From positions 1 to 41,475 of IMG/VR virus record IMGVR_UViG_3300037838_000055: a DNA stretch of 41,475 nucleotides. One strand, 5' to 3'. Positions within the stretch are counted from its first letter, which is position 1; every line of letters begins with the position of its first letter. This document shows positions 2,534 through 25,600 of this stretch, piece by piece. The stretch comes from a virus. The position numbers and the translations under genes were made by a program. The notes beneath the pieces are model-generated. The model worked only from the letters and a program-made list of their open reading frames with translations. It had not been told where the DNA came from and searched no databases.

Positions 2534-2790
2534 TGACTACTGAAACTACGAAAAGATACACTATATCAAAAGAAACTTTAATGCCCTTAGGAATGGTAAT
2601 AACTCTCTGTGCCGCTGTGGTGTGGATAAGCTCTCAACTCAATAACATCAACCATAAGCTTGATATTATTGAAAATGCTATGGAGGACCAATGGACAAGC
2701 CGCGATATGGAAAATTGGGGTTTACGCTTGAAAATGCAGAATCCTACTATTGAGATTCCGGGGCTGGAGATTCCCTTAAAAAATAATTAA
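2533..2790 (+). CDS. Small single-pass membrane protein
   Basis: An 85-residue protein with a hydrophilic N-terminus, one hydrophobic segment at about residues 15-35 (LMPLGMVITLCAAVVWISS) and then a short heptad-like stretch (LNNINHKLDIIENAM). There is no signal peptidase site, so it is probably membrane anchored. The ATG overlaps the stop of the fibre gene by one base, which suggests coupled translation. Small one-helix proteins beside fibre or lysis genes in phages are sometimes holins or spanin-like, but nothing here proves that. No family was recognised. The stop region overlaps the end of the convergent gene on the other strand by 4 bases. Confidence 0.75.
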   Translation: MTTETTKRYTISKETLMPLGMVITLCAAVVWISSQLNNINHKLDIIENAMEDQWTSRDMENWGLRLKMQNPTIEIPGLEIPLKNN

Positions 2791-3014
2791 TCGACAATAT
2801 GAGCTTGCTTCATTAGACGGATTACTCGTTGAGTATAGGTTCGTCTAAAATTATTGAGAGTATTAACCATATTCTCTAGTTTTATTACTCCGTCTGAGCT
2901 TACATCATCCGAAGTTAAAAAATGTCCTAATTCAGCATGGAGCCAATTAAGGTCAGCTAGTTCTGAAGTGTTCAACTTACTTCTAAGTTCTTCAATCTCT
3001 TGTGGGTTTTTCAT
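2787..3014 (-). CDS. Small hypothetical protein coupled to helicase
   Basis: A 75-residue, mostly helical, charged protein with no recognised family. Its ATG overlaps the TGA of the upstream helicase gene (ATGA at 3014-3011), the usual mark of translational coupling, so it is probably made with the helicase. T4 has a small gene next to uvsW (uvsW.1), but I cannot see sequence similarity that would prove a relationship. It converges with the membrane protein gene and the two share 4 bases at their ends. Confidence 0.65.
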   Translation of the reverse strand: MKNPQEIEELRSKLNTSELADLNWLHAELGHFLTSDDVSSDGVIKLENMVNTLNNFRRTYTQRVIRLMKQAHIVD

Positions 3015-4384
3015 AGTGTTATAACCTCATGGCCCTCTTTCTTGTAATGACGCTTTCTTGCGTTAGAATGTTCTCTTAGATACTTTTCTTTATCTAAGAA
3101 ATCATAGATAAAAACTTTCTCTTTTGATTCGTGTCGGCGTAAAGCTCTACCTAGAGCTTGCAGGGTTGCTATTTCAGACTTCATTCCTCTGGCGTTAATG
3201 AAATGTGTGATTTCTTCAATGTTAATACCTGTTTGGAGGATTTTAGTGCCAATGAGGGTACTAGTTCCTCTATGTCTGAGGAAGTTAGATATACTTTTAT
3301 ACCTTTCTCCGAGGGAGTCTTCACCCTGTAAAAACTGTACTTCCCCGTCTCCAAGCAAGACCTCCAAGGCTCTTCCATGATCAAGTGATTTGGTAAGTAT
3401 AAGTATGCGAGATCGCTCGCTGGTTCGTCTAATTTCATTTACAATCTCCTTAATAATATTGTTTCGTGATTCGTTATTTACTATGTAGTCCTCATATACC
3501 TCAGGGTAGGCTAACTCTTCGTCTGCTCCGCTGGCAGTATAGGGTCTATCTATTAGCTGTATAAGGGGTTTTGTAAGCCTTCCAGCCTCCACAAGACCCG
3601 AAGTATCCACAGAAGCCCACACAGGCCCCAGAGAGCCCTCCAGATTGAATTTGGGGATAGTATCGGATGGTGGGGTGGCTGTGAATCCGAAGCGGTACAG
3701 GGCCTTAGGGAAGGCTTGGAGAGCAGCCAAGGTAGTTTTGCCATTTGCGAACTCATGGCACTCATCCACCATTAAAACTTCGGTTTCTTCCAAGTGCGTG
3801 TCTAGAATCTTTTCGATGCTTTGGACAGTACATAACATAATATCCCCGTAAATATAACCCTCACCAAAACAAAGACCAATATTATCCATCCCACAAGTTT
3901 TAGTAAGAAAATCATAAGTTTGTGTTAGTAGCTGTTTTGCGTTAAAAAGGAGTACCATCTTCCTCCCAGCCAGTGCTTTCACTAATCCAGCCATAATTAG
4001 TGTTTTTCCTGATCCAGTAGGTGATTTTACAATTCCTCGTTTTTCTTTAAGAGCCCTAATAATTAGCTCTTCTTGGTAATCATACAATGAAAAGGCAGAA
4101 AGTAGCCAACTAGCGGTATTCTCTTCTTTTACAGAATTTTCAAAAACAACCTTAGGATCACAATCAATCTTTTTTAGATCTTTAAGGACACGAAGTAATA
4201 AACCTGTGAGGAATATACCCTTTCTCGTAATAAAATGAATATTTCCATCCCAGTGCCTACGCTTATAAGCAGAAGAATACTGGTAGCCAGGAACTTTTTC
4301 CGAGTACAGCCTATATAATGCGTCTAATAAATCAGGATTATCGGTGATAATTCTAGATTTTAGAGTATTTACAAGGATCTTCAT
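3011..4384 (-). CDS. uvsW: UvsW-like SF2 DNA/RNA helicase
   Basis: With the ATG at 4384 the protein has 457 residues. A longer reading from a TTG at 4444 would run into the divergent gene and is less likely. The N-terminal part (about 1-75) with YKRRHWDGNIHF resembles the small DNA-binding domain of T4 UvsW (family pattern: Trp-Asp-Gly after basic residues). Then come superfamily 2 motifs: Walker A SPTGSGKT at 121-128, DECH at 207-210, FTATPP near 234-239, and motif VI QALGRALRRH at 409-418. UvsW unwinds branched DNA and R-loops and helps switch T4 from origin- to recombination-dependent replication. The assignment as a UvsW-type helicase is firm; the exact role in this phage is inferred. Confidence 0.9.
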   Translation of the reverse strand: MKILVNTLKSRIITDNPDLLDALYRLYSEKVPGYQYSSAYKRRHWDGNIHFITRKGIFLTGLLLRVLKDLKKIDCDPKVVFENSVKEENTASWLLSAFSLYDYQEELIIRALKEKRGIVKSPTGSGKTLIMAGLVKALAGRKMVLLFNAKQLLTQTYDFLTKTCGMDNIGLCFGEGYIYGDIMLCTVQSIEKILDTHLEETEVLMVDECHEFANGKTTLAALQAFPKALYRFGFTATPPSDTIPKFNLEGSLGPVWASVDTSGLVEAGRLTKPLIQLIDRPYTASGADEELAYPEVYEDYIVNNESRNNIIKEIVNEIRRTSERSRILILTKSLDHGRALEVLLGDGEVQFLQGEDSLGERYKSISNFLRHRGTSTLIGTKILQTGINIEEITHFINARGMKSEIATLQALGRALRRHESKEKVFIYDFLDKEKYLREHSNARKRHYKKEGHEVITL

Positions 4385-4432
4385 TAGACTATTATAGAGC
4401 AGACCCTTGTGGTTACTTAGGAGTAATTTTAT

Positions 4433-5209
4433 ATGATAGAACAAGAAACAAAGACCCAGAAGCCTGAAGATAAGCTAAATAAACAGACTGAAAAGCAGAT
4501 TCTTGCTACTCTTCTGAAGAATGTACCGTCGAATGATGCTGTACCAGTAAGCGTACCATCAAAAAACCGATTTTACAATTTAATAGACTCAGCGAAGCCA
4601 ATTTCCTTGCGTCCGATGACCTTTGATGACGAGAAGGCTATGCTGTCAAAGAAGAATGCTAACCAAGATGTACTAAATGTCTTGCTAGGAAGGTGTATAA
4701 ATAATATTGATGTAGGTCAACTTCTCCAGATGGATAAACTCTATCTAATTATGAAATTGAGAGAGATCTCCTACGGTGATGAGTATAGTGCTACTATCTC
4801 TTGTAATGGTTGCCGAAGAGATAATCAAGTAAAGTTCGAACTATCTAAACTTCAGGTTAATTTGATTGAAGAAGACCTGACTAACCCCGTGGATGTTTAT
4901 CTCCCGGTTATTAAGAAAAAGTGTAAGGTTCGATTACCACGGGTTTCTGATGAAAATTACTTTGCCAACTCTGAATATGCAGTTGCTAACCTGTGGCGGT
5001 TTATAGAGGAAGTAGACGGTCATGAGGCTAAAGGATTAATTTCTAAACTAGTCCCACAGCTACCCATCAAGGATATTCATGCAATCTTAAATATTCTTTC
5101 GGGTAATAAGTACGGTATTGATACAAAGGTACGCTTCCTATGCAATTACTGTAACCATAATGAAATTATGGAGCTTCCTATTACTTCCGATTTTTTTTCC
5201 GGGAACTAA
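4433..5209 (+). CDS. 26: gp26-like baseplate hub/assembly protein (zero-frame product)
   Basis: A 258-residue protein resembling the T4 baseplate protein family that includes gp26: a loop-rich start, then PSKNRFYNL, LRPMTFDDEKAML, a segment ending in REISYGDEYS, and CxxC pairs at Cys124/Cys127 and Cys237/Cys240 that could bind one zinc ion. An AGGAG ribosome site lies at 4419-4423. In T4, gp26 takes part in building the central baseplate hub. The reading frame ends in TTT TTT TCC GGG AAC TAA, and the run of T residues just before the stop is a frameshift signal (see the separate entries). The zero-frame form would be the major product. Confidence 0.8.
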   Translation: MIEQETKTQKPEDKLNKQTEKQILATLLKNVPSNDAVPVSVPSKNRFYNLIDSAKPISLRPMTFDDEKAMLSKKNANQDVLNVLLGRCINNIDVGQLLQMDKLYLIMKLREISYGDEYSATISCNGCRRDNQVKFELSKLQVNLIEEDLTNPVDVYLPVIKKKCKVRLPRVSDENYFANSEYAVANLWRFIEEVDGHEAKGLISKLVPQLPIKDIHAILNILSGNKYGIDTKVRFLCNYCNHNEIMELPITSDFFSGN

Positions 5210-5391
5210 GTACAGGTTTTAATTTAGAGAACCTGTACTTAGAAGCCTATATACTTGTAAAGCACTGCCGCTTCGGCTACGGAGATGTGCAGCACATGTC
5301 AAGAGGCGAGAGAGAGATATTCTTGAACCTTTACAAAAAGGAAATGGAAGACCAAGAGCGTGCAAGTAAACAACACAACAGTCGTAGATAG
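4433..5391 (+). CDS. Predicted -1 frameshift product of gp26-like gene (319 aa)
   Basis: If ribosomes slip back one base at 5191-5197, the 255 residues read up to 5197 are joined to 64 more read from 5197 to the TAG at 5389-5391. The added part contains NLENLYLEAYILVKHCRFGY, then GDVQHMSRGEREIFLNLYKK and a charged tail; it is amphipathic and helix-like, not random. It has no good start of its own: the first ATG in this frame is at 5296 and would give only 31 residues. It fills what would otherwise be a 150-bp gap and overlaps the next gene by 32 bases. Frameshifted tail-assembly chaperones (lambda G/GT, P2 E/E') have this design. Frameshifting itself is inferred and has not been observed. Confidence 0.75.
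5191..5197 (+). promoter_or_regulatory. Slippery heptamer T TTT TTT for -1 frameshifting
   Basis: Within an uninterrupted run of eight T residues (5191-5198), the zero frame reads GAT TTT TTT TCC. This places a T-TTT-TTT heptamer at 5191-5197 so that both tRNAs can re-pair perfectly in the -1 frame. It lies 9 bases before the zero-frame stop codon. Confidence 0.75.
5206..5242 (+). promoter_or_regulatory. 13-bp perfect stem-loop, probable frameshift stimulator
   Basis: CTAAGTACAGGTT (5206-5218) is the exact reverse complement of AACCTGTACTTAG (5230-5242), with an 11-nt loop that can shrink to 7 nt by one U-G and one U-A pair. The stem starts 8 nt after the slippery heptamer and includes the zero-frame TAA (5207-5209). 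No T run follows on the + strand, and the minus strand has an A run at that place, so an intrinsic terminator is unlikely. Confidence 0.75.
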
Positions 5392-6292
5392 GGGCAACCG
5401 CCCAAATATTAGCCAACGAATTGGGCTTCGTATTTTCTTTATTAATGACGGAGAGTATGTTGATCCCTACGAAATCAGTTCGGTACAACTCTTCAAACAG
5501 TCTGATACTCTTACCCCTTTATCGGTCCTAGGATCTGACGGATTAGTTTCCTCAAAACCATTGATGACCTTCGGGGCATCGGGGGATACGCAAACAACCT
5601 CCTCTAAGTTTAATTCTTCCAATTATCTTCCATCGGTTACCGCAAGTGGGATTTATAGGATTAAGCAGGGGGAGTATGTTGTAGTTTTAGATGAGACTCT
5701 AAACCTCTCTGGTTGGGACACAAACACAAGTACCCAGCTTGCTGTCTCCAGTCTCTCTGCCGTTAATAACTATGTTGATATGTGGGCAGTCAAGCTTGAT
5801 GCCGCCTCTAAATATCAACTTATAACAAATAACTTCGCTTTATATGAAGATACTTTCTTTGCTTTCACCGAGCCTTTGCTTCTTACTACTAGAAATGCTT
5901 TAATGAACAAGCATGTAAGACTTGGAGAAAAGTTGGACCTTAAGGTTACTACTGAGACTACTCTTCAAAATAAGACAATTGATAAATCAATTCAGAATAT
6001 ATTTAAGGAATCAGTTATTACTAAGGGGTTGATGGAAATTAGAAAAGTAAATCAAGAAATAAATATTGATGGACCCTTTACAGTTGCTAGTTTCCTTTCT
6101 ACCAATGGGCTGGTAGATATCACCACAGATAATACCTTATTAATGAATTGGGATACCGCACTCTTGAAGGATAACGAGTCCTTCAAGGCAGGAACTTTCG
6201 GAAGTCTAACAGGAACTTACAGTGTACAGGTTAAATATAATATCCTGAACCAGACATTTATAAGTCCACTGTTCTATCTCACAGTGTCGTAA
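5360..6292 (+). CDS. Putative virion structural protein, unknown family
   Basis: A 310-residue protein with a GTG start that overlaps the tail of the -1 frameshift extension. No family was recognised. The sequence is rich in short beta strands (SGIYRIKQGEYVVVLD, and a C-terminal GTYSVQVKYNILNQTFISPL that reads like an immunoglobulin-type or similar beta domain), with a helical stretch near residues 195-230. It has no signal peptide or membrane segment. Its place after the gp26-like gene and the beta-rich make-up suggest a tail or baseplate component. The GTG has no strong ribosome site right before it, which fits coupling to translation of the upstream frame. Confidence 0.65.
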   Translation: MQVNNTTVVDRGNRPNISQRIGLRIFFINDGEYVDPYEISSVQLFKQSDTLTPLSVLGSDGLVSSKPLMTFGASGDTQTTSSKFNSSNYLPSVTASGIYRIKQGEYVVVLDETLNLSGWDTNTSTQLAVSSLSAVNNYVDMWAVKLDAASKYQLITNNFALYEDTFFAFTEPLLLTTRNALMNKHVRLGEKLDLKVTTETTLQNKTIDKSIQNIFKESVITKGLMEIRKVNQEINIDGPFTVASFLSTNGLVDITTDNTLLMNWDTALLKDNESFKAGTFGSLTGTYSVQVKYNILNQTFISPLFYLTVS

Positions 6293-7280
6293 GGAGGTGA
6301 TTCATTAGATAGTCGTAGTCATACTTTTTAGTATGGTAATCGACAAAACCGCTTAGGTCTTGGCCCCTCATATGGGCATCATTCCAGTCGTTAACTTCCG
6401 AAGGTGGATGGCAGATGTGCAAGTCTGCCATCCTTTTTAATCGCCGCAAGTAATCAAACTTACCTACGCCTCGTTTTCCTGCATCATCATTATCATATCC
6501 GATAATAATTTTTCCATCAAAGTCTTTTAGTGCCTCTACCTGTATTTCAGATACAGAACAGCCCATAGTGCAAGTAGCATTAACTCCTTGAATTTGAAGT
6601 GAAATAGCGTCTAATGGACCTTCACAAACTACAAGAAGATTGGCACACTCATCATAGGGATATAAAATATGTGATGAGCGAGGCCAATCATCTGTTGGAT
6701 TTAAGTATTTAGGTGTCTCATCTCCCAAAGCACGGGCTTGAAAATAAAAAATCTCCGAATTTTCTAAAAACGGTATGATTAAACGCCCTGCATACTTACC
6801 TTTGGTAGAAACATAGTAGGTACGATCATTTTTTTCTAGATCAAACAACCTTCTTTCATATAAAAAGGTCCATGCATGTTGAACAAGCCTATCTTCACTA
6901 TCATAATCTTCTACTGTGATGGATTTAAGATGTAATTCACCAATTCCTGTGGCCCAACCGTGGGGAGGTTTTTTTGTAGTCACTGGAGGAGTATAAGTCT
7001 CAATTTGACCGTCAAACTCCTTAAAAAGAATATCAGCTTCGGCTTGGTTATAGGTCAATCCTTCCATATAGGCGTAAAGCTGGATGAAGTTACCTTTATT
7101 ACCGCTCTTGAAGCATTGCCACAACCCAGTATTTAAATTAATACTCATGTGACGCTTGTAATCGTCAGAGATATATACAGAGGGGACAATTAGCTCTGAC
7201 TCACCAGAGGACATTTTGTAATTATCCTTGAACTTCTCAAGGAAGTAGTCTCTAATAAATTGAGGAGCAATTATGTTCAT
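6279..7280 (-). CDS. DnaG-type DNA primase with TOPRIM domain (T4 gp61-like role)
   Basis: A 333-residue protein. The TOPRIM fold is shown by VVCEGPLDAISLQ (Glu220) and IIIGYDNDDAGKRG (Asp263 and Asp265), the metal-binding residues of primases. The N-terminal part (about 35-75, with LWQCFKSGNKGNFIQL) looks like the primase zinc-finger region but has only one of the usual cysteines, so zinc binding may be lost. The protein would make RNA primers at the phage replication fork, as gp61 does in T4. Its end overlaps the convergent structural gene by 14 bases and its start overlaps the divergent nuclease gene by 8 bases. Whether it is an orthologue of gp61 or another DnaG-like lineage is unresolved. 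Confidence 0.85.
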   Translation of the reverse strand: MNIIAPQFIRDYFLEKFKDNYKMSSGESELIVPSVYISDDYKRHMSINLNTGLWQCFKSGNKGNFIQLYAYMEGLTYNQAEADILFKEFDGQIETYTPPVTTKKPPHGWATGIGELHLKSITVEDYDSEDRLVQHAWTFLYERRLFDLEKNDRTYYVSTKGKYAGRLIIPFLENSEIFYFQARALGDETPKYLNPTDDWPRSSHILYPYDECANLLVVCEGPLDAISLQIQGVNATCTMGCSVSEIQVEALKDFDGKIIIGYDNDDAGKRGVGKFDYLRRLKRMADLHICHPPSEVNDWNDAHMRGQDLSGFVDYHTKKYDYDYLMNHLLTTL

Positions 7281-8070
7281 AAATACAATTTCCGAATCAA
7301 AATCTAAGACTTTTAAAGAGTGTCAGTTGAAGTACCGTTATCGGTATGTGGACCGTTTCAAGGAGGAGAGGACTAATACTGATCCTTTGCACTTTGGTTC
7401 TTATATCCATAAAATCTTTGAAGATGGCTATCAAGCGACCACGCTTGCCCAGCTAACTGTTATAGCTGATAATGTTAAAAAAGATTACACCTTTTCAGAA
7501 TCTTATACCCCTAAGATCAAAACTTGTTTAGAGAACTTTCTCCGCTTCAACGCTTCCCTATCTGAAACCGTTTCAACAGAAATGGTGTATGAGGTAGTGT
7601 ATGATAAAGAGAAAGATCTTAAGCTCAACGGTATTATTGACCGTGTGATTAAAGGTACAGACGGTGGATACCTTGTTATCGACTATAAGACTTCCAAAAG
7701 AGAATTGTCTGAGTTAGATCTTTATCAGGATCGACAGATGCAGGGGTATGCTTTTGCTATCCATAAGAAGCTGGGGGTCCCCTTAAGTAATATTGTGGTT
7801 GCCCACTACTACCCGCTCACCAACCACTTCGTAACTTGTAAGTATTCTCCTAATCAGATTAAGCACTATCTGAAGGAGAAGGTGGATCAGATGTGGAAGA
7901 TCCGCAAGATGAAGAAGGAAGAGTTTAGAGCTATGCAGAATCAGTTCTGCAACTGGTGTGGGTATAAAACCTTGTGTCCCGAGTTCAACTCTGGTAGACT
8001 ATGCGAAGAGCGCATTGAAAAGCTCAAGGAAGGGCGAAAGAATAAGCGCACCTCCAACCGCAAAAAGTAG
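7273..8070 (+). CDS. RecB/Cas4-like PD-(D/E)XK nuclease with Fe-S cluster motif
   Basis: A 265-residue nuclease. Expected active-site parts are visible: GSYIHKIFEDG (His46), GIIDRV (Asp123), VIDYKTSK (Asp137 and Lys139) and QMQGYAFA (Gln157, Tyr159). Four cysteines, Cys17 near the N-terminus and Cys226-x2-Cys229-x5-Cys235 near the end, match the split 4Fe-4S signature of Cas4 and AddB nucleases. It probably resects or trims DNA ends during recombination or packaging (inference). There is no cas gene nearby, so it should not be called a CRISPR protein. The last 17 or so residues are very basic (KEGRKNKRTSNRKK). Its 3' end is overlapped antisense by a small membrane protein gene. Confidence 0.88.
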   Translation: MFINTISESKSKTFKECQLKYRYRYVDRFKEERTNTDPLHFGSYIHKIFEDGYQATTLAQLTVIADNVKKDYTFSESYTPKIKTCLENFLRFNASLSETVSTEMVYEVVYDKEKDLKLNGIIDRVIKGTDGGYLVIDYKTSKRELSELDLYQDRQMQGYAFAIHKKLGVPLSNIVVAHYYPLTNHFVTCKYSPNQIKHYLKEKVDQMWKIRKMKKEEFRAMQNQFCNWCGYKTLCPEFNSGRLCEERIEKLKEGRKNKRTSNRKK

Positions 8071-8187
8071 AACGGCAATAGCTAAGTAAACTATAGAACT
8101 TAGCAACTGACCACACCCCCCCATCTCATGGGTAACTTGGTTTATAATTCCGTATTCGATCAGGTCGTTTTCATCTAGCCTTGTCAT
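7999..8187 (-). CDS. Small one-helix membrane protein (uncertain)
   Basis: A 62-residue reading frame with a hydrophilic first half and one long hydrophobic segment at about residues 29-60 (IVYLAIAVLLFAVGGALIL). It overlaps the start-proximal gene on the same strand by 17 bases and runs 72 bases antisense into the nuclease gene. There is no clear ribosome site before the ATG at 8187. The clear membrane segment and the tight spacing support a real gene, but a chance frame cannot be excluded. No family was recognised. Confidence 0.5.
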   Translation of the reverse strand: MTRLDENDLIEYGIINQVTHEMGGCGQLLSSIVYLAIAVLLFAVGGALILSPFLELFNALFA

Positions 8188-8455
8188 TTGTGATCAATGG
8201 GTAGTATATACTTATATCAATGGATGTAAAAAAGTTTTCCACCTGTTCAGGTGAATACCTACACTTCTTTGTTAGGTAGTTAAACAGACTGCTTTGTTTA
8301 ATCTGTTTCTGTTTGTTAAGGGATTCAAGGATCTTGATTTGAAAATGCTTTATAAATTTTTCTGAGTATTTATATCTCCATTTCTCTACAAAGTCTCTGT
8401 GTAGAGTATGATTGATTAAATCTATAAAATCTATAAAGTCTATATCTGTATTCAT
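8171..8455 (-). CDS. Hypothetical small protein
   Basis: A 94-residue, helical and strongly charged protein (KWRYKYSEKFIKHFQIKILE) that begins with a short Asp-Phe-Ile repeat encoded by a repeated TCTATAAA-type sequence on the opposite strand. No family was recognised. An AGGA ribosome site sits just before the ATG at 8455. It is followed by the small membrane protein frame with a 17-base overlap, so the pair could be one operon of non-structural genes. Confidence 0.6.
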   Translation of the reverse strand: MNTDIDFIDFIDLINHTLHRDFVEKWRYKYSEKFIKHFQIKILESLNKQKQIKQSSLFNYLTKKCRYSPEQVENFFTSIDISIYYPLITNDKAR

Positions 8456-8488
8456 ATTCCTAACTTAATTTATATATTAGAGGCGAGA

Positions 8489-8956
8489 ATGGCTCTCTTT
8501 TCAAAAAAAACCCAAGAATTTTTAGAAGACGCAGGTAAAAGTCCCAAGAGGGTGGGTACGCCTATTGAGGCCAGCGCAGGATACATTACTCCAGGGGATA
8601 TTTTAATCTTTAGATATTTCAATCATCTTTGGGCAAAATACTCAGGGAGAGGAGCAGGAAGCAGAGAACAACGAGTGGTGTTGGTTGTGAAGACTAAAAG
8701 AGGTAATGGTATATTTATGGCATCTCCCAAGTCTCCCAGCGCAAGAGATGGTGATTTCCTCATGAGTGCTTTTAATTTAGAGGGCAGATCCGAAGAAGTT
8801 ATTGATACTATCATAGAAAACCTATATAAAAAGAGGAGACGCGCTTCTTACTACGGGCTAATACATCAAAGCCTCCAAAAACTCTTAGGTCCAGACAGCT
8901 TTAGAACCTTTAGGCTGAAAGGGATGAAGGGTATCTATAAGTTAACTCTGAAATAA
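8489..8956 (+). CDS. Conserved-looking hypothetical protein, possible SH3-like barrel
   Basis: A 155-residue protein with no recognised family. The middle part contains ITPGDILIFRYFNHLWAKYS and RVVLVVKTKRGNGIFMAS, a pattern of beta strands seen in small SH3-like barrels such as the PemK/KOW type, followed by a helical part and a basic end. GAGG at 8481-8484 precedes the ATG. It stands four bases before the tape-measure gene and is probably co-expressed with it, so a tail assembly or structural role is likely, but this is inference only. Confidence 0.65.
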   Translation: MALFSKKTQEFLEDAGKSPKRVGTPIEASAGYITPGDILIFRYFNHLWAKYSGRGAGSREQRVVLVVKTKRGNGIFMASPKSPSARDGDFLMSAFNLEGRSEEVIDTIIENLYKKRRRASYYGLIHQSLQKLLGPDSFRTFRLKGMKGIYKLTLK

Positions 8957-8959
8957 ATC

Positions 8960-11900
8960 ATGGCAGACGAACCAAATAATCTTGAAGAACTCATCAAGCA
9001 GCTTTTAGCGGTGACCGTTGCTTCGAATGAGGCCCGAGGTGATGCAGAGAAGGAAGCGAAGGAGCAGCGAGATAAGGCTACGGCAAAGCAGGATAAAGAG
9101 GATAAGAAGATTGGGAACCAGTTAAGACAGGCTGATGGTCATCTTACCAATCTCCCCGTAATCGGTAAGATGACCAAATTTATCTCCAGCCAGATAAATC
9201 AAGTCGCTAACCAATCTCTGAAACTTCAAGAAGCAGCCCTATCCAGAGGCATGACCTTAGGTTCGGCTATAGACCGTAACAGTAAGGTTCAGAAGCAGTT
9301 AACCACCTATACTGGGGCTGCTGTAGGTTCGATGGCTGCTGTCCAAACTAACTTTGAGATGTTTGCAGGAGGTTTGGGTGATGCTAGTTATGAAACCAGT
9401 AGACTAGTTCACGCTACTAGGTTATCTTCAGGTCAACAAAAACAACTCATTGCTGGGTTAGCTAAGAATACCCGAGGTATGGGCTTTACTAGTGAAGAAA
9501 CTAGTAGACTTGCTGATACTACTTTAGGAATGAGCCAGAAATATGGTATCAGTACTAACGAATTAGTGAATGCAGTTGGTGGGTTATCAGACCAGCTTTA
9601 TGATTTTGCTGCTTTAGGTATCGGTGCAGAAATACAAGAAGCTGCTACTGTACTAGCTGCGGGACTAGGCCCAGCAATGGCTAAGGTTGGTCCTGAGCTT
9701 ATTGGAGCTTTCACTAAAGGCGACAGCATGATTCAAGCATCCCTTCTAGGTGTGAGCGCAGAGAGAGCGGAACTCCTTAAACAAGGGGGAGATCAAACAA
9801 AAGCTGCTATTGGATTAGTAACCAAGGGTGGAGCCGAAGCTGAACGCTTAATTAATCAGTGGACTTCCGGGGGGATGGATAGAGGACTAGCGTTACAACA
9901 GCTTACTCAGATTTACGGAAAAGAAACAACACAACTTCTTGCTGCTAGGAATGAATTACAAGATCAAGCAGATGCGAGGAAAATGTCCCTTACGGCTTAC
10001 ACTAAGCAGATGCAGAAAGAAGCAAAGATTAAAGAAGAGTGGGCGACCACATGGCAGAACTTTAAAGATAGGGTAGTCTCCCCCCTTCAAGAAGTGGTTA
10101 TGGCTTTTGTTAATTTTGGTCTTCAATTAATAAGTTATTTTGGACCTCTTATTAAAGTAGTTGCTCAACTTTCTCTGGGTGTTGTTTCCTTGATGATGGC
10201 AGTCATAGCCATGAAAAAAGCCTTTATTCTCTGGCAAGTAGCTCAGAAGGGGTATGGAATGGCGAAGGGTGCGATTGGAGCAGCGGGAGGAGGGCTTGCA
10301 GGGGCTGGTCGCGCAGCGAAAGGGGGCATCGGGGCTGGTTGGGACAAACTAAAAGGCTTCATTACGGGGAAGAAGGGTGGAGGAGCAGGAGGAGGCTTAG
10401 GGGACAAACTAAAAGGCTTCATTACGGGGAAGAAGGGTGGAGGAGCAGGAGGAGGCTTAGGAGCCCCTAAGCCTGGGGGAGGAGGAGGAGCCATGCCGGG
10501 AGCCCCTGCTGGGGGTGGAGGCTTAGGGGGCTTCCTAGGGAAGCTAGGAGACGGGCTAAAGAAGCTAGGGACAACGGGGGCTCTGAAGGGCGCAGCGGTC
10601 ATTGCGATTCTCGCTGCCTCTTTAGCAATTGCAGCGGTTGGATTTGGATTATTTGGGAAGGTAAATTGGGAATCTATTGCTAAAGGCACAGTAGCTTTAG
10701 GAATACTGGGGACCGCAGCGTATTACATAGGTAAAGTGAAAGATGATATTGCGAAGGGTGCAGGAGCTATTGCCCTTTTAGGATTATCTCTTATTCCTCT
10801 TGCGTTTGCTTTCAATCTTATTAAAGCGGTGGGTATTGGAACAATGTTCGGGTTCGCTGGAGCATTAATAGTATTATCTATAGCGGCTATCGTGTTCGGA
10901 AATCTCATTGTCCCAATTTCTCTGGGGGCTGCGGCATTCCTTATATTAGGATTATCTTTAATACCGTTAGCTTTTGCTCTTAGAATTGCTGCTCCCGCTA
11001 TGGACTCCTTTATGACCGCTCTAATTAGGTTTAAAGATGTTCCCTTACTGAAACTATTAGGGTTCGCTTTTGTGCTGCCCTTCTTAGCTGCGGGAATGAT
11101 GACCTTGGCACTAGTGGCTCCGGGTATGTTCGTACTAGGCGTAGCTATGACACTCTTTATTGGTCCGTTCATGAAGTTTGTAATTGCTCTTAGTTGGTTC
11201 AAGAAGGTCCCCCTAGGGAAAATATTAGGGTTCGCATTGATGATGCCCCTATTTGCTTATGGAATTGCTACACTGGGTCTAGTTGCTGGTCCCCTATTGT
11301 TCCTTGGTATAGCTATGTCGCTCTTTATTGGTCCGTTCATGAAGTTGATACTGGCTCTTACTTGGTTGAATGATGTTCCGATAGGAAAAATGTTCCTGCT
11401 CATGCCAGCGTTGATGGCTATTACATATGGGTTACTGGCTATGACTGCTGGTGGGCTTCTTATGGCAGCGTTTGATGGGCTATTAAAACTGTTTGGTGCT
11501 GATAGTCCTATTGATAAAGTTGTAAAAATGGGGAAGGCAGCGGAACATATTAACAAGATGGCTAAGACTCTTAAGACTCTTCCAAGACTATTGAGGCAGA
11601 CGGTAAAAGAAATGGCTAAGATTAAGCTGGCTCCTTTCTATCTCTTAGCGCATGGACTTGGAATTGTTAAGAAAGCTATAGACAATTTTAGTTTGATGGA
11701 CATGTTGAAGTTTAAGATGTTTGGAATTCAACCTGCTGCGGCTAAAGCTAAACCTATGGACAAAGTAAAACAAGCCGCGACCGAGAGACCCCATAAACAG
11801 AGTTATTCGAAGTGGCCTGTACAACAAAGAAAGAAGAAAGAGTCGAGTTGGAGCTTCCAGAGTGAAGGTATTGGAGATATCTTTATGCCTAAGGCTGGAG

Positions 11901-12196
11901 AAGCTCCTGCTAAAGTAGACCAAGCTAGAATAGACAGAAAGAAGGGTGAGATTCAGGAGCTTGGAGGTCGGGCTGCTAACATGCGAGAAGGTAGTCGAGG
12001 ACGGGGTATGGTGGAGCGACAGGTGGGAATCTTAGAAGAGCAATTAATATACCTTAAGCAGATTTACGATAAGCAAGAGGAGGGTAATGAAATTGGTGTT
12101 GAGGGTAATAGTGATAGGCGAGAAGGACACCGTACCCAAAGGGGGAGACCTACCGATAGAATTGCGGGTGCTGGAGTAGTAGGGAGCTTAGATTAA
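8960..12196 (+). CDS. Tape-measure-like tail length protein
   Basis: A 1078-residue protein, the usual build of a tail tape measure: a charged coiled-coil start (about 1-60), a long helical domain (60-360), a Gly-rich linker (430-520), several very hydrophobic segments (530-840), and a charged helical tail. The linker holds two exact copies of a 60-bp unit. The hydrophobic part also repeats: LGLSLIPLAFA occurs twice, and LFIGPFMK recurs with a 168-bp period (11153 and 11321). In tailed phages this protein sets tail length and is ejected with the DNA; the hydrophobic part may enter the host membrane. T4 gp29 is the functional counterpart, but no close match was visible. It is directly followed by baseplate genes, which fits. 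A signal peptide was not seen. Confidence 0.8.
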   Translation: MADEPNNLEELIKQLLAVTVASNEARGDAEKEAKEQRDKATAKQDKEDKKIGNQLRQADGHLTNLPVIGKMTKFISSQINQVANQSLKLQEAALSRGMTLGSAIDRNSKVQKQLTTYTGAAVGSMAAVQTNFEMFAGGLGDASYETSRLVHATRLSSGQQKQLIAGLAKNTRGMGFTSEETSRLADTTLGMSQKYGISTNELVNAVGGLSDQLYDFAALGIGAEIQEAATVLAAGLGPAMAKVGPELIGAFTKGDSMIQASLLGVSAERAELLKQGGDQTKAAIGLVTKGGAEAERLINQWTSGGMDRGLALQQLTQIYGKETTQLLAARNELQDQADARKMSLTAYTKQMQKEAKIKEEWATTWQNFKDRVVSPLQEVVMAFVNFGLQLISYFGPLIKVVAQLSLGVVSLMMAVIAMKKAFILWQVAQKGYGMAKGAIGAAGGGLAGAGRAAKGGIGAGWDKLKGFITGKKGGGAGGGLGDKLKGFITGKKGGGAGGGLGAPKPGGGGGAMPGAPAGGGGLGGFLGKLGDGLKKLGTTGALKGAAVIAILAASLAIAAVGFGLFGKVNWESIAKGTVALGILGTAAYYIGKVKDDIAKGAGAIALLGLSLIPLAFAFNLIKAVGIGTMFGFAGALIVLSIAAIVFGNLIVPISLGAAAFLILGLSLIPLAFALRIAAPAMDSFMTALIRFKDVPLLKLLGFAFVLPFLAAGMMTLALVAPGMFVLGVAMTLFIGPFMKFVIALSWFKKVPLGKILGFALMMPLFAYGIATLGLVAGPLLFLGIAMSLFIGPFMKLILALTWLNDVPIGKMFLLMPALMAITYGLLAMTAGGLLMAAFDGLLKLFGADSPIDKVVKMGKAAEHINKMAKTLKTLPRLLRQTVKEMAKIKLAPFYLLAHGLGIVKKAIDNFSLMDMLKFKMFGIQPAAAKAKPMDKVKQAATERPHKQSYSKWPVQQRKKKESSWSFQSEGIGDIFMPKAGEAPAKVDQARIDRKKGEIQELGGRAANMREGSRGRGMVERQVGILEEQLIYLKQIYDKQEEGNEIGVEGNSDRREGHRTQRGRPTDRIAGAGVVGSLD
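10341..10460 (+). repeat. Perfect 60-bp tandem direct repeat in tape-measure gene
   Basis: The 60 bases at 10341-10400 are repeated exactly at 10401-10460 and keep the frame, giving two copies of a 20-residue unit (DKLKGFITGKKGGGAGGGLG). Identity at the DNA level points to a recent duplication and a site where the copy number could change. Confidence 0.95.
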
Positions 12197-13391: not shown

Positions 13392-16205
13392 ATGGAAGAA
13401 AGACATGCAGAAGTCCCTACAGTTAACATTATCATGTCTTACGACTACATGGATCTTTTGGAGTTTCAAAAGTCTATGACGCTTACTGATTTTAAAACTG
13501 GGTTAGGTAGTAAGAAGACAGGTACTCAACAAACTTATATTTTCAGTAATAGTCCCGCTTCTAATTTTATATCACTAAAGCATAAATTTGGATTTTCTCA
13601 AGGAGGGAAGCAAGCCGCTGCTCCTGAATTAGAAATTGATTTTATTGATCCAGAAGGGACCTTTGAGACATCGTGGTTTAAGATAGGCGATCAAGATTTG
13701 ATTTCTCTTGACGATGATCCTTTAGGCTCACGGTTAGAGCGTAAAAAGAAAGAGTTGCAGGGATTTGTAACCTTACTTCATAAGATAGAATCAGGAGAGA
13801 TGGACGAAGCTATTGATAGAGAGAATGATGGTTCTATAAAAGTTCTGGGGATGAAATTTAATGATGGTGCTACTGAAAACAATCTTGAAGATCATATAGA
13901 CACATTAAAAGACGAAGTAGAAGTGATGGAGGACGCAAAGAAAGATGCTGCGTTGGGTAAGAGCAACTTTATTGGCTGGCGAGATAGTAATGATGATGGA
14001 GGATATGCAGAGAAAAACCTTGAATTAATTCAAAAACAAATTGATGCTAACTCTAGCCAACTTCAACGCCCTGTGTGGATAACTTATGGAATAGGAGAGA
14101 ACTTACTAGACTGGACTCCCGTAATGTGTTTTGATCGCTGTATAAATATGGAATACAGCTTTACGGGAGGAGGCGCACGAAGTTTAAAGTTAGTCTATTC
14201 TGGGGTAGGCATCCATCCCAATTTAACACAAATGGGTCTTGGACCTCTTAAGGGCTTTCAACTTGGGATGGTTTTTACTGGAGAATCTAATCCTATGTTT
14301 AATAAAAAGGCTTTTGAAGTCGAGAAGAAATTTTATGAGCCCTTACTTAAAGAGGTAGGATCAGACTACGAACCAGACCTTTGGCGACCCAGCATCCACA
14401 AGATTATTAGAGATACTATTCGAAGGTATATTAAAGGAGCCATTGGAAAGAATACAAATGTATTATGTATTTTACCTGATCTTGATAAGTATCTTGCTGG
14501 GGAATATAAGAAAAGATTAAAAGAAGTAAGGGCTTCAATGGAGGGTATGCTTCAAGGAGCTAAAGAAGATAATATGGAAATGATAACCTCACATATTCAG
14601 GCTACAAAAGAAGTAATAGAAAGCTGTGGATTAAATTTTGTAGAAGAGTTGAACACGGAGATTCAGGTGGCTGTTGGAGCTAATGTATGGGATAGAATTG
14701 AAAATATTGAAGATCCTGCGAAGGTAATGGATTGGCTACAAAGCAAAGACCTTACTGCTATTATTTCTGGTGATGGAGTAGAGGAAACTATTCAAGAAAA
14801 AATCAAGAATGTTATGGAGAAGATTAAGGAGTGCGTTGATGACGAAGGGGCTATCCCAGGCTTCGATCCGTATTGGTATGTAGAATGTGATTTCAACATG
14901 TTACAGGTGATGTATAAGCATTTTGGTGGGAGGGATATTAAGGCAGGGAAGGTGCCCGCGCCTGAGTGGATGTATGAGACTAATAGTGTAGGCGAAGCAA
15001 TGAAGCCCGTAGTTGTGGTGGGGGATAAAAATACCATTATGAGTTATCTCCAAGCTAGGATCTTTGACCAACAACAATTAGACGAAGAAGGCAATGTTAT
15101 GAGTTTTGCCAATACAAAAGAGCAGCAGCTTGCACTAGAAGAGTCCATCACAGAGCAAATTAATCCTTATGACAAAGCAGACGGGCTTACTTATAAATTT
15201 TTAAAAGAGATTTATGATGTTAATATACCCATTCCGTGGATTTCTCCGTTTGGTGGAAGCACAGGTGGCGATTCTGAAGATCTGTACTTGCCGGGGGATA
15301 CAAATATTCCTAAGGGAGACTTAGACCAGATTAGAAAAGAACAACCTTTGACCGCTCTTCGAATGCCCGTCTTTGCCTTGGGTACAAAGAACCCTAATGT
15401 TTTAAGCTTAGATATTGATATTAATAAACAATATTATAATCTTATGAATAACTTCGGGATGCAACCTAGAAGTGCCCAACAGTATACTACTTCTATTATG
15501 GGAAAGGGGAGTGAAAAGAGTGAAGAAGTAACTAAGATTTTTAATGCAATTGCTGAATTAAATCTTAATGTTTTAGATAAGAACGGTGTTCCCGTGGGAT
15601 TTGAAGCTATTGTTTCTCCTTATTGGGATCAAAACATGCAGATATGGGGGACTACTGATGCATTTAAAGCAGCGGGGGAGATTGATGATTTAGGAGGAGT
15701 AGAAACACTATTCACTCATTTTGGTACTGATAACGATATGCCTGAGCTTGTAGACCCAGACGGAAAAGATTTCGATAGTAAAGCAGACATGGTTAAGTTT
15801 ATGTGGAAAGCCTTCTCTGCTATTGGAGAGACCCATGACATTAAACCTAAAGCCAAAAAACAAACTAGTGGCAAGGGAGTGAGTGGTGGGAAGAATGCCA
15901 TAATGACTGCTGCTAAGATGGGAGCTAAGTTAACCAATCAAGCATTATTAGGTACTATTACTACGATTCCCATGTTTCATCTTTCTAACGACAGACGAGT
16001 AATAAACAGAAAAGCTCTATTATATTGTGTAGAACCTAGGTTTGCAGCCGGGAACTCTCTTTTTGAGGAGGGAACTGACAATCTAAAAACAAACTTAACT
16101 TGGTTTAGTGGAACTTATATTATGACAGGCTTTGAACATACCATTAGTAAGGGGGCAGTACAATCCTCTTTTGCTATTAACAGACCTACGGGGGGACGAG
16201 AATGA
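13392..16205 (+). CDS. Large baseplate hub protein (gp27-like)
   Basis: A 937-residue protein. The end (GTYIMTGFEHTISKGAVQSS then FAINRP) has the form of the last domain of hub proteins such as T4 gp27 or phage gpD, and the gene directly before the spike supports this. The N-terminal part is beta-rich (SLKHKFGFSQGGKQ...ELEIDFIDPEG). Two inserted helical, charged regions lie at about residues 110-210 and 320-480. It is more than twice the length of T4 gp27 (391 residues), so insertions or fused parts are likely. A hub forms the trimeric platform that links spike and tube. Function is inferred from fold-like ends and context. Confidence 0.65.
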   Translation: MEERHAEVPTVNIIMSYDYMDLLEFQKSMTLTDFKTGLGSKKTGTQQTYIFSNSPASNFISLKHKFGFSQGGKQAAAPELEIDFIDPEGTFETSWFKIGDQDLISLDDDPLGSRLERKKKELQGFVTLLHKIESGEMDEAIDRENDGSIKVLGMKFNDGATENNLEDHIDTLKDEVEVMEDAKKDAALGKSNFIGWRDSNDDGGYAEKNLELIQKQIDANSSQLQRPVWITYGIGENLLDWTPVMCFDRCINMEYSFTGGGARSLKLVYSGVGIHPNLTQMGLGPLKGFQLGMVFTGESNPMFNKKAFEVEKKFYEPLLKEVGSDYEPDLWRPSIHKIIRDTIRRYIKGAIGKNTNVLCILPDLDKYLAGEYKKRLKEVRASMEGMLQGAKEDNMEMITSHIQATKEVIESCGLNFVEELNTEIQVAVGANVWDRIENIEDPAKVMDWLQSKDLTAIISGDGVEETIQEKIKNVMEKIKECVDDEGAIPGFDPYWYVECDFNMLQVMYKHFGGRDIKAGKVPAPEWMYETNSVGEAMKPVVVVGDKNTIMSYLQARIFDQQQLDEEGNVMSFANTKEQQLALEESITEQINPYDKADGLTYKFLKEIYDVNIPIPWISPFGGSTGGDSEDLYLPGDTNIPKGDLDQIRKEQPLTALRMPVFALGTKNPNVLSLDIDINKQYYNLMNNFGMQPRSAQQYTTSIMGKGSEKSEEVTKIFNAIAELNLNVLDKNGVPVGFEAIVSPYWDQNMQIWGTTDAFKAAGEIDDLGGVETLFTHFGTDNDMPELVDPDGKDFDSKADMVKFMWKAFSAIGETHDIKPKAKKQTSGKGVSGGKNAIMTAAKMGAKLTNQALLGTITTIPMFHLSNDRRVINRKALLYCVEPRFAAGNSLFEEGTDNLKTNLTWFSGTYIMTGFEHTISKGAVQSSFAINRPTGGRE

Positions 16206-21044: not shown

Positions 21045-22651
21045 TGGTATTCTCAGGAACAACAACTACAGATTTCATGAAGCTTGTTACTATCCCGGAT
21101 AGGAAGAAGCAACAATATATTGATTTTGCAGCAGATGATTTTTATTCAATTAGAAAAGATTTAATTGGGTATATAAAATCGGTATACCCCTTGGATTATC
21201 AAAACTTTTCTGAGTCTGATTTAGGATTAATGTTAATAGAGCTTGTATCTTATATGGGCAGCGTGTTCTCTTTAAAGGGAGACATGTTAGCTAATGAAAA
21301 TTATTTAAGGACAGTAAAAACTAGAGAAAATCTTAAAAAATTATTGGAGCTTATTGGAGTTGATATGCGGGGTCCATTATCTGCCGCTGCTGCTGCTAGA
21401 CTCACAGCAAATACTACCCCTCCTGAAGAGGACTTTCCTCTACTTGTTACTCCGTCTTCTAGAGTATTTTCAATTATTTCCAAAGAAGATGGGGCACCTG
21501 TAAATTACACTTTGTATAAGATTGTAAATAATACTATTTCGGATATTACTTCTCCTAACGCAACTTTTGAATTAAAGGGAGACGAAGCTGATAACGCAGC
21601 AAGTTCTGTTTTTACTAATGTAGCTATACTTGAAGGAGCTATGAGTGTTCAAAAAGGAACTTTTGATACCTTAGAGGGTAATAAACGAATTGCTTTAACA
21701 GACTCTCCAATTATTGAGGGAAGTGTTCAAGTGTTTATTAGTACTGGTAATAAAGAGGATGAGTCTAATGGAGCATACAGACAGGTCGAAAGACTATTTG
21801 CAGCCTCTGGCATAAACGACAGAGTTTTTCAAGTTATTTACGGGGATAACTATACGGCTACTCTCCTTTTTGGGGATGGTGTAACGGGTATTTCTCCTCC
21901 TGCGGGAGCAACCTTTACAATAGTGTATAGAGTGGGAGGAGGAAGTAGAGGAAATATAATAGGAGGGGCTATCAATATTACTACTACAGTCGAGTCCTCG
22001 GATGGTAACACTTTTCATCCCTTCATTACAGAAAACATTACTCCAGCAACAGGGGGTCAAGATGCGGAGACGGCTGAACATGCTAAAAAGTATGCCCCTC
22101 TTACCTTTAAACGACAGGATAGGGTAGTAACCCTAGAAGATTACATTGCTATTGGAAACACTTTTAGAAGTAAACAAGGTACGGTAGGTAAAACTACTGC
22201 TGCGGTAAGAGATGCTTTCTCCTCTGCTAATGTTATTGATGTGTATACTTTAGAAAAGGCATCAGATCATACTCTTCAAAAGGCTTCTACTACATTTAAA
22301 AAAGACTTGTTGGAAGAGATTGAACCTAAGAAAATGTTAACAGATGAAGTGGTAGTTGTGGACGGTCTAATCAGAACCTTAGACTTAGTAGTTACTATTA
22401 GAATTGATGAGGAGTTAGAGCCAATCGCAGGAACGATTCAACAAGAAGTTGCTGAGATTATTATGAACTTTTTTAATGTAGATAACTTTGATTTCGGAAA
22501 ACCCTTCATAACTAGTGAGCTAAATCGAGATATTTTTAATTTGGATAAAGTACGATACGCTACTGTAGATAATCTCCCAGAAGTAACTAATGTTGATTTC
22601 CATGAGATTATTCAACTTAATAACTTTACAATTAATACGATAACGGTGTAA
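21044..22651 (+). CDS. 6: gp6-like baseplate wedge protein (baseplate J family)
   Basis: A 535-residue protein. The N-terminal part YPLDYQNFSESDLGLMLIEL then VSYMGSVFSLKGD is usual for gp6/gpJ. The core motif LLFGDGVTGISPPAGATFTI then VYRVGGGSRGN is the best sign: Gly-Asp-Gly-x2-Gly, Pro-x-Gly-Ala and Tyr-Arg-x-Gly-Gly-Gly. The second half includes a beta-alpha unit (TLDLVVTIRIDEELEPIAGT) and ends in a conserved-looking tail. Dimers of gp6 form the ring that joins neighbouring wedges. Confidence 0.9.
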   Translation: MVFSGTTTTDFMKLVTIPDRKKQQYIDFAADDFYSIRKDLIGYIKSVYPLDYQNFSESDLGLMLIELVSYMGSVFSLKGDMLANENYLRTVKTRENLKKLLELIGVDMRGPLSAAAAARLTANTTPPEEDFPLLVTPSSRVFSIISKEDGAPVNYTLYKIVNNTISDITSPNATFELKGDEADNAASSVFTNVAILEGAMSVQKGTFDTLEGNKRIALTDSPIIEGSVQVFISTGNKEDESNGAYRQVERLFAASGINDRVFQVIYGDNYTATLLFGDGVTGISPPAGATFTIVYRVGGGSRGNIIGGAINITTTVESSDGNTFHPFITENITPATGGQDAETAEHAKKYAPLTFKRQDRVVTLEDYIAIGNTFRSKQGTVGKTTAAVRDAFSSANVIDVYTLEKASDHTLQKASTTFKKDLLEEIEPKKMLTDEVVVVDGLIRTLDLVVTIRIDEELEPIAGTIQQEVAEIIMNFFNVDNFDFGKPFITSELNRDIFNLDKVRYATVDNLPEVTNVDFHEIIQLNNFTINTITV

Positions 22652-25600
22652 TGGCAAGAAGGAAGATTACAAGAACTAAGTTTAGCGATCAAGGGGTAAT
22701 CATTCCTGAGGTCGTTGCTGTAGTATCCGCAAAGGATAAAAATGTTGATCTTAATACTCCGCAAAAATATTTTAAGAGAAACTACTTAGATGCTATCCGT
22801 ACTGTAATCCCTCCTTTTTACTTGTCTGAAGAGAAGGATATTAGCGGGACGCATGTTTCATATCCCAACCAGCTTATTAATTCTCACATTTTAGCAAACG
22901 CCAATCAGGCTACAATTCTTCCTGTATCTTCTTTGGGGGGCGATGAGTCTCTTTCTTCTATTGGAAGCCCATCAGGGTTTGCTAAGTTCTTTCATAAGAC
23001 CTATTCCCCTGCTTCTATTTCTCCTGATGACTTTGAAAGAAATATTCTTTTTAAATTAGGGAAAGCTTATAAAGGGTTTTCTACAAGTACTGCTTTTCAA
23101 AATTATGTAAGTGGAACCTTGCTTCCGTCAATTCCTAGCCTAAGTGATGCAGATATTAACTTGGCTACGACTACAGCAAGTGCTTTTGATAACACCTCTT
23201 CTGGAACCTATTCTTATCTTGTTAAAAACTTAGGGTGGCTATACTTCTTAAATCGTAATGGGTCCGAGGAATTTACCCCCTCTACTGCGGTAGCAGAGTT
23301 GATGACCCAGACATTTTACAGGGGACAACCCGTTGTCTTAGAAGATTTAATCAACATTTATCAAGAACATCTGTGGAAGGGGCAAGCCTCCTTCGGACTT
23401 ACAGAAAAGATTATTCCCACAGATTATGTATCGTCTTTAGTTGTAAGCTCTAATACCAATACGAGTGGTTCTCAATTACTTGATAGACTAAAGATTCTTA
23501 ATACTATTAATTACTCTCCCCATTATGTGGATAGCCCCGATATAAAGATTGAAGAAGCGTTCACTACTTTCTTTGATACTTCAACGACATTAGAAATTGG
23601 GACTCTTATTACAGATACGGAGGAAGCAGGACCTTTAGCCAGATTCTTACAAGCTATGTCCTTCTCTTTTGCAGACAGACTTACGGAACAAGATGAGATA
23701 GGTATTCTATATGACATTGGGAAGTGTCCTGATGAGTTTCTAGAGCTTCTAGCCGAGTTAATTGGTTGGAGATTTATAGGTGCTGACTTTGATAAGTGGC
23801 GCGTACAGTTACGCAATGCTGTTGAAATTTATAAGATGAAGGGAACTAGAAGGTCCATTCAAATTCTAATGGATACTTTATTCTCTACTGGAATATTCAA
23901 TGTTACCTCTAGTGATACTTTATCCGAGCTTTGGGAGTCGTATGTACCAGACCTTATGTATTATGCGTTAGCTACAAGCTCTGCTGCATTTCAAAAACTA
24001 GGTAGTACCTATACTGAAAAGGTAGCAACTCAATTTGGTATACCGCATTATAGTAATAAGAGCATGGATCTTAATATCAAATATGCTGTAGATAAGATAA
24101 TGTTTGATTTAGTAAGAGACTTTCCTAGTTCTTTTCTTTTAGTAGGAAAACGGTTCCCCACTCCTGAGTTCGTTTATTCTGGAACAACCGTTGTGTACAA
24201 TGGACCTTACCATTTAATGAGCCCCAACGGGGAGACTGACCCTTATTGGATGACTGGGAGGGTACATGAGTCTTCCTCCCTTGCTTTAGATTTTAGGTAT
24301 GATCCAGACTTTACTTTTGTGTATAGGAATCATTTAAACTATATCCCTCCTTATGAGAAACGACAGTACTATACACAATCTCTATTAACTACACCTATGG
24401 TTGATAGGATAGAGTTTTATCTAAGGTGTTATGGTTGTGATGCTTCGTTTGCTAAAGAAGTAACCGATTATATTAGAACCCATACTAGCACGACTGTTAA
24501 TGTTGATCAAGTTTTAAATAACTTCTTATTGTTTACTAAAAAGAAAACCTATCCCCCCAATTATGCTACTATTCTTCAAGATGTAACAAAGCAAAGAACC
24601 CCAGATCCCGCATCCTTATTGTCTTTGTGGAATGGGAAGTCTTCTCACTTCCTTATGTCTTTGGATGCTAGTTCTTTTGATTTTAAAACTAAGAGTTTTG
24701 GTTATAATACTTCTTATGGAATATCAAAGATTATGCCTATCTTAGATCAGGTTATCCCTGCTCATGCTATCCCAGAGATTCTTTTGAATGTCTCAAGCGT
24801 AGCTGATGTTTTAGATGCTTTAGGGGATAACGACTGTAGAGAATGGCGACCTAATTTTGATGATCTTTACGAGGGTTCTTCCACAGTTACTACGGGCTTT
24901 GGTGTGTGTGCGGTTAACATGGCTGCCCTTGCGGCAGCAAATAGTATTACCCCTCATCGTTTTAAGAGGTTCCAAGCAGATAATGTAACTGATGTTCTTT
25001 TATCAGGCAACACTTTTCAAGCTGTTGGGGACTCTAATAGAAACTCTTTGCGTAGGAGAAACTTTCATAACCTTCTTCCTGAAACAAAAATGTTCACAAG
25101 GAATGGAAGAAACAACCCTGGAAGTTTAGAGTTATCTAGTCCTTATTACTCTTCAGGGGTGGGATACCTTCCCTTAGGGTTTATGCCCTCTTCTTTAAGA
25201 TATAAAGAAGTAGCACTATCACAGAATAAAAACGACTACGGCATTGGGTCACTCTTATCAGATAATGTTGATCCTGTATGGGATATCTGCCAGAACTTAA
25301 CTTCCCCAAGTTCTATGTTTGGGTATGATATTAGTAATACTTTTGCTTCTAGAGCTAAACAAAATGTGGCTTCCTCCGATTGTAATACTTATGGAAGACG
25401 AGGACAACTACAAGAAATTATGTATGTTATGAATACTTTTCATGATAAGGAGAAGTATCTTCAAGCAAGCTCTATAGTTTCTGGCTACTATGATGAGGGG
25501 GGAATAATTGATCCTACTTGGCCTACTAGCAGTATACTATTAACTCCCAATGATTTAAGTTCTTGGTATGCAGAAAAAGCTGTGTATAAGGGTTTGGATA

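Follow-up and report, generated by a model that had tools for sequence, protein, structure and literature searches.

Introduction

The accessible text of Atkins et al. (2016, PMC5009743) describes G-T frameshifting as widespread in long-tailed phages 'except T4'. For T4-like phages, tail assembly chaperone genes are named, as cited, by Vladimirov, Gautam and Davidson (2022, Virology 566:9-15), a paper represented here by its title and by the texts of PMC10885494 and PMC12846349; it is also cited by PMC11131426, PMC12671138 and PMC9603447. In the portion available to us, PMC12846349 (2025) gives it as the reference on poly-T shift sites of T4-like phages. Judging from the title and the citing texts, the genes concerned would be T4 genes 26 and 51. 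The consulted part of Leiman et al. (2010, PMC3004832) counts both T4 gp26 and T4 gp51 among the hub assembly chaperones, describes gp51 as essential but of unknown function, and reports genetic support for gp26 in the hub itself as well. The available text of PMC2993671 mentions no frameshift, and our literature search found no paper in which 'baseplate hub assembly' occurred together with 'frameshift'.

Here we analysed the 41,475-nt IMG/VR virus record IMGVR_UViG_3300037838_000055, from an uncultured T4-like virus; the whole stretch is referred to as the window. A preliminary description of this DNA had proposed a programmed -1 frameshift in a gp26-like gene, yielding a long and a short product, and had suggested that such a gp26 pair might be new. 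The comparative evidence given below (the heptamer, the open -1 frame and its dN/dS of 0.15) supports the frameshift as well as the long/short reading. Novelty could not be maintained, as a similar design, with poly-T shift sites in T4-like phages, is already reported in the text of PMC12846349 that we could consult. Frameshifted T4-like chaperones are a known kind, to which the window adds an uncultured lineage.

Layout of the locus

The gp26-like gene, whose zero-frame product carries two CxxC pairs, ends in frame with ACT TCC GAT TTT TTT TCC GGG AAC TAA. The reading of GAT TTT TTT TCC within this gene confirmed the phase of the slippery heptamer proposed in the preliminary description (Table 1). 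The eight Ts that include it are the single run of that length on the + strand of the window, and runs of seven Ts occur at four other places. The -1 frame is open between a TGA at 5161 and the TAG at 5389-5391, with the 64 codons originally described. Within the extension, the earliest ATG, GTG or TTG is the GTG at 5287, which lies 30 codons in and leaves 34 of the 64 codons.

Table 1. Coordinates of the gp26-like locus in the window.
Feature	Position	Strand	Basis
gp26-like zero-frame gene (short product), 258 aa	4433..5209	+	PF12322, phrog_150, 47 related contigs
Slippery heptamer T_TTT_TTT	5191..5197	+	in phase; part of the eight Ts at 5191-5198
Spacer from heptamer to stem, 8 nt	5198..5205	+	sequence and fold
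Stem-loop 5' arm, over the zero-frame stop	5206..5220	+	15 predicted pairs, first 13 unbroken Watson-Crick
Zero-frame stop TAA, three codons past the heptamer	5207..5209	+	spacing identical in 47/47 related contigs
Stem-loop 3' arm	5228..5242	+	predicted pairing
-1-frame extension, 64 codons + TAG, gp51-like helical C-terminal domain (putative long product)	5197..5391	+	

The gene had also been placed upstream of a tape-measure gene, a position for which the window gave no confirmation. The next gene is a 310-aa ORF (5360-6292) without a family match, and no tape measure gene was identified in the window by family searches or by comparing its ORFs with the gp26 surroundings in named phages. 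A tape measure is annotated just downstream of the gp26 locus in LIS04 and one gene further on in Cr30. The 310-aa ORF has its GTG start within the -1 extension, with which it shares 32 bases.

Elsewhere in the window, two adjacent genes (28245-28985 and 28995-29624) both match phrog_5417, a family of unknown function, and are probably tandem paralogues. We also observed six very large ORFs of 901-1483 aa (8960-12196, 13392-16205, 22651-27102, 29626-33081, 33083-35788 and 35810-38644), none of which matched a PHROG family at E 0.01 or better. A megablast comparison of positions 4000-9000 with named phages gave no match.

Conservation of the heptamer and the -1 frame

Relatives were present on 47 IMG/VR contigs with 38-100% protein identity; the set includes identical and near-identical ones and holds 34 distinct junction sequences. 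In all 47, the heptamer lies exactly three codons ahead of the stop. Its first six Ts are invariant, and the seventh base is T in 14 contigs (T_TTT_TTT) and C in 33 (T_TTT_TTC). The residue preceding Phe-Phe varies (N, D or S in the window type; N, D, S, A or G overall), and its codon always ends in T. The codon-usage probabilities, 10^-14 for 35 clusters and 10^-30 for 69, are overstated because related clusters were treated as independent.

The -1 frame is open in all 47 contigs. Stop codons in this frame, which the preliminary description had named as evidence that would speak against a frameshift, occurred in none of the 47 loci over the 50 codons past the gp26 stop, whereas frames 0 and +1 contained stops in every locus. 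Over the same codons, dN/dS was 0.15 in the -1 frame, 0.98 in frame 0 and 2.1 in frame +1, compared with 0.09 for the 50 gp26 codons ahead of the slip site, all values being sums over non-independent pairs of 70-97% identity.

The downstream stem-loop

The perfect stem of 13 Watson-Crick pairs (5206-5218 with 5230-5242) was found over the zero-frame TAA as originally described, after the 8-nt spacer, and is extended by a G-U and one further pair to 5220/5228. The 81-nt fold has an energy of -24.2 kcal/mol (z -4.8), and none of 200 shuffled sequences folded as well.

Conservation of the stem was assessed on 34 distinct 60-nt stretches from the 47 contigs, among which the window stem is the strongest (-20.2 kcal/mol over 46 nt; the next has -14.2). 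In 24 of the 34, the fold energy is -8 kcal/mol or lower, in a register that is not uniform, and 10 fold above -6 kcal/mol, where the structure is weak or absent. When the relatives were aligned as the preliminary description had suggested, the T run (47/47) and the -1 frame (dN/dS 0.15 vs 0.98) proved conserved, and the stem varied in strength and register. For the 10 basal pairs, 75% of cells across the 34 relatives are paired, compared with 72% after shuffling and 43-53% after sliding, with 13 two-sided changes vs 6.3 in shuffles. For the 15-pair stem, the corresponding figures are 65.5% of cells paired, 60.9% shuffled and 45-57% slid, and sliding by -1 yields equally many two-sided changes. 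RNAalifold returned no consensus structure over all 34 sequences. With synonymous shuffles, the mean z of the window family was -1.05 (n=21), compared with -0.89 and -0.23 in the controls, and hence without a clear family-wide excess; the stretch past the cyanophage heptamer exceeded such shuffles in structure, with a mean z of -2.07 (n=56; controls -0.34 and -0.32) and hairpins at varying positions. The stem is the weakest part of the signal, and a strong stem is not universal.

Identity of the two protein parts

The gp26 identity proposed earlier was corroborated by matches of the zero-frame product to PF12322 (T4_baseplate; E 5.4e-18, 65.9 bits, curated cut-off 24.5) and phrog_150 (baseplate hub; E 9.8e-21). 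Searched alone, the -1 extension gave no match in Pfam and a single one among the PHROG families. This was phrog_634, annotated as 'baseplate hub assembly catalyst' and aligned over positions 64-117 of 121 with E 2e-5, a family also matched by the C-terminus of T4 gp51. Moreover, its profile aligned with the cyanophage gp51 tails in hhalign (E 2.7e-6, probability 89%).

The AlphaFold model of the window gp26 (pLDDT 86) had 62 Foldseek matches in BFVD at E 0.001 or better, to predicted gp26-type phage proteins; the top match was the SP-15 baseplate hub subunit (E 6.5e-19). Among 594 aligned PDB chains, the best was YqbN (3klu; rmsd 3.0, 73 residues) with Z 4.5, compared with 2.7 for the runner-up row, in a range (Z under 8) where the tool warns of chance matches; in the Foldseek search, YqbN ranked fourth with E 1.6. 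YqbN is a tail assembly chaperone according to the available text of PMC9603447, and the likeness of the modelled gp26 to the tail assembly chaperone fold, sought in its N-terminal domain with YqbN and HK97 gp13 as the known examples, is weak and only suggestive. The model of a T4-type gp51 (pLDDT 91) has a tail of three predicted helices. YqbN was not among the rows of its fold search, in which p32 came best (Z 3.9) and was taken as unrelated. Among PDB sequences, the gp26 profile matched none, and the extension profile gave only three short matches to immunoglobulin-binding protein A constructs, which we took as chance. When gp51, gp26 and tails were aligned together, the gp26 C-termini came out poorly aligned, and this alignment was left out of any prediction.

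T4-type genes

T4 gp51 matches phrog_150 over positions 13-280 of 282 (E 2.6e-84), with its C-terminus also matching phrog_634, whereas T4 gp26 matches phrog_150 only up to position 235. The two are paralogues (BLASTP E 2e-6) and are divergently encoded. On these sequence matches, T4 has the short form as gp26 and the long form as gp51, a gp26-like domain with the same tail in frame, supplied by two genes. In the RB43 locus (L155, whose numbering is used here), the long gp51 (2001-2744) and the short gp26 (2737-3294) stand in tandem on one strand with an eight-base overlap, and the origin of the duplication may be visible in this arrangement; the T4 pair is divergent.

T4 gp26 ends GLKEFFELL, at the would-be slip position. 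We compared 32 minus-strand gp26 genes of this type (T4 and 31 loci), of which one (L162), cut by the locus end, was dropped. Phe-Phe is kept in 26 of the remaining 31, many of them near-identical relatives, and T_TTT_TTN occurs in none; L179 comes with TTT TTT after G, that is, six Ts. T4-type gp26 would need no shift because gp51 is a separate in-frame long paralogue. These genes serve as a natural control: with the long form supplied by another gene, the slippery site is missing and Phe-Phe mostly stays, suggesting that the site is kept for decoding and not for the protein. Neither this use of the T4-type genes nor the +1-frame group described below was found in print, and Vladimirov et al. 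may hold either.

Cyanophages and other named phages

Among the best 80 of at least 598 cyanophage-type relatives, T_TTT_TTC stands one codon ahead of the gp26 stop in all 80. In the same best 80 of at least 598, gp51 is open in the -1 frame throughout (in L115 only to the contig end) with a dN/dS of 0.05, and the remaining two frames have stops in every locus. L145, in which the gp51 frame is broken, was excluded from one alignment (A6).

In 22 named or complete phage records of our own selection, the gp51-like tail lies in the -1 frame in 17 and in the +1 frame in 5. Fourteen of the 17 have T_TTT_TTN: S-SM2, P-RSM6, Cr30, Ochrobactrum OC, Ahp1, YB07, Melnitz, D481, RHph_Y68, OLIVR5, RAS14, Paride, Atu_ph07 and LR756511. 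In the other three (SFP10, Kuja and K393), the -1 tail is open at ATT TTC, CTT TTT or CTT TTC, and a slip different from that on T_TTT_TTY may operate. The +1 (or -2) tails of SP-15, LIS04, SagM-GXN1, Mel-JY01 and LR756508 adjoin TTT TTT, TTC TTT or AAC TTT codons, which mark only a candidate shift region. The E-values of this tail comparison refer to a 40-sequence set, and the tails of Paride, Atu_ph07, Kuja and LR756511 show weak similarity, with poor scores with both profiles. A scan of viral contigs with the SP-15 gp26 recovered SP-15 itself only.

The evidence is evenly balanced on a broader reading, in which the T4-related chaperone family switched its decoding method several times, so that the supply of both forms, and not the mechanism, would be what selection has kept. 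It would comprise -1 shifts at T_TTT_TTY (the window lineage, cyanophages, Cr30, Paride and others) and at other T-rich sites (the Ackermannviridae SFP10 and Kuja, and Vibrio K393), +1 (or -2) shifts in SP-15 and the four phages listed with it, and duplication with in-frame fusion in T4.

Proposed mechanism and alternative explanations

We consider it highly probable that this uncultured T4-like virus makes gp26 and a gp26-51 fusion as a short/long tail-assembly-chaperone pair by -1 slippage. The site, the selection on the -1 frame, the homology of both parts and the paralogy in T4 are shown by sequence comparison, whereas slippage itself and its rate, stimulation by the stem and the chaperone role are putative. 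Most ribosomes would translate the gene to its stop, giving the 258-aa gp26-like short protein. At GAT-TTT-TTT, in a minority, two tRNA-Phe would slip back one base together on T_TTT_TTT, presumably helped in the window by the stem-loop eight bases downstream. Translation would then follow the -1 frame through 5391, adding the 64-residue gp51-like helical tail to gp26 with the junction ...SDFF/FREL.... If the pair works like lambda gpG/gpGT, the domain common to both forms would coat the tape measure protein, with recruitment of tube or hub proteins falling to the less abundant long form. A chaperone role of both forms is thus suggested by the lambda pair together with the T4 literature; our confidence in the main reading is slightly lowered by the T4 review, in which gp26 figures as a component of the hub as well.

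An improbable alternative is that gp51 is a separate small gene, with ribosomes that end gp26 restarting nearby and translating the -1 frame without slipping. It would agree with the annotated cyanophage and related records that we examined, in which the gp51 stretch is either annotated independently or omitted and a joined gene is never marked. Among the best 80 of at least 598 cyanophage-type loci, moreover, 60 have a -1-frame ATG at a distance of 5, 8 or 14 bases, counted from the first base of the stop of gp26, and in 43 this distance is 5 bases, so that separate translation is possible there. Yet a Shine-Dalgarno-like 4-mer stands ahead of the first start in only one of these 80 (best 80 of at least 598) and in none of the 46 window-type loci having a start in the -1 frame (one of the 47 has none). 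An in-frame upstream start inside gp26 occurs in 10 of the 47 window-type loci, without such a 4-mer. In the window itself, the first start comes only after 30 codons of the 64-codon extension. Given this late start and the lack of the 4-mer in the 46 loci, separate initiation is unlikely in the window, and it is less excluded in cyanophages. Restarting also leaves unexplained the invariant T_TTT_TTY and its absence in all 31 T4-type gp26 genes. In the cyanophage and related records, the gp51 stretch, annotated as free-standing or missed, very probably belongs to a fusion protein as its tail.

The eight consecutive Ts of the window are long enough to make slippage of RNA polymerase thinkable, which would place the frame change in the mRNA and not in translation. 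This we regard as very improbable: in 33 of the 47 contigs and in all 80 cyanophage loci (the best 80 of at least 598), the six heptamer Ts are followed by C, a pattern that fits codon-anticodon re-pairing (TTC to TTT) more readily than slippage of the polymerase, and the conservation tracks codon phase. The chance that the stop and the frame change are accidents of a sequencing error or a decayed gene is negligible. It is refuted by the presence of the arrangement in all 47 contigs, with 34 distinct junctions at 38-100% protein identity, and both parts are under purifying selection. Slippage of ribosomes on the heptamer thus stands as the preferred reading.

Comparison with known systems

The T4 genes 26 and 51 provide the same two protein parts as the window locus, with gp26 as the short and gp51 as the long form. 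They differ in being two divergent genes, the gp26 of which lacks the heptamer, whereas in the window one gene and a -1 shift would supply both. The gp26/gp51 loci of cyanophages (Kyanoviridae, e.g. P-RSM6 and S-SM2) share with the window a gp26 that ends at T_TTT_TTC and a gp51 in the -1 frame; unlike in the window, the stop comes one codon and not three past the heptamer, it frequently has an ATG after it, and the position of the downstream structure varies.

For Pseudomonas phage Adele and the Vandenendeviridae, the available text of PMC12846349 likewise proposes a -1 shift at a T run, with the downstream ORF mis-annotated as a gene in its own right, but the motif there is GTTTTT and the phage family is different. 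In lambda gpG/gpGT and the P2-type chaperones, as described in the consulted part of PMC5009743, a short protein is accompanied by a rarer -1-extended form, as proposed for the window. The window differs in its slippery site, T_TTT_TTT, and the likeness proposed is one of design. With this locus, an uncultured lineage joins those T4-like phages in which frameshifting appears to be the means of producing the tail chaperones.
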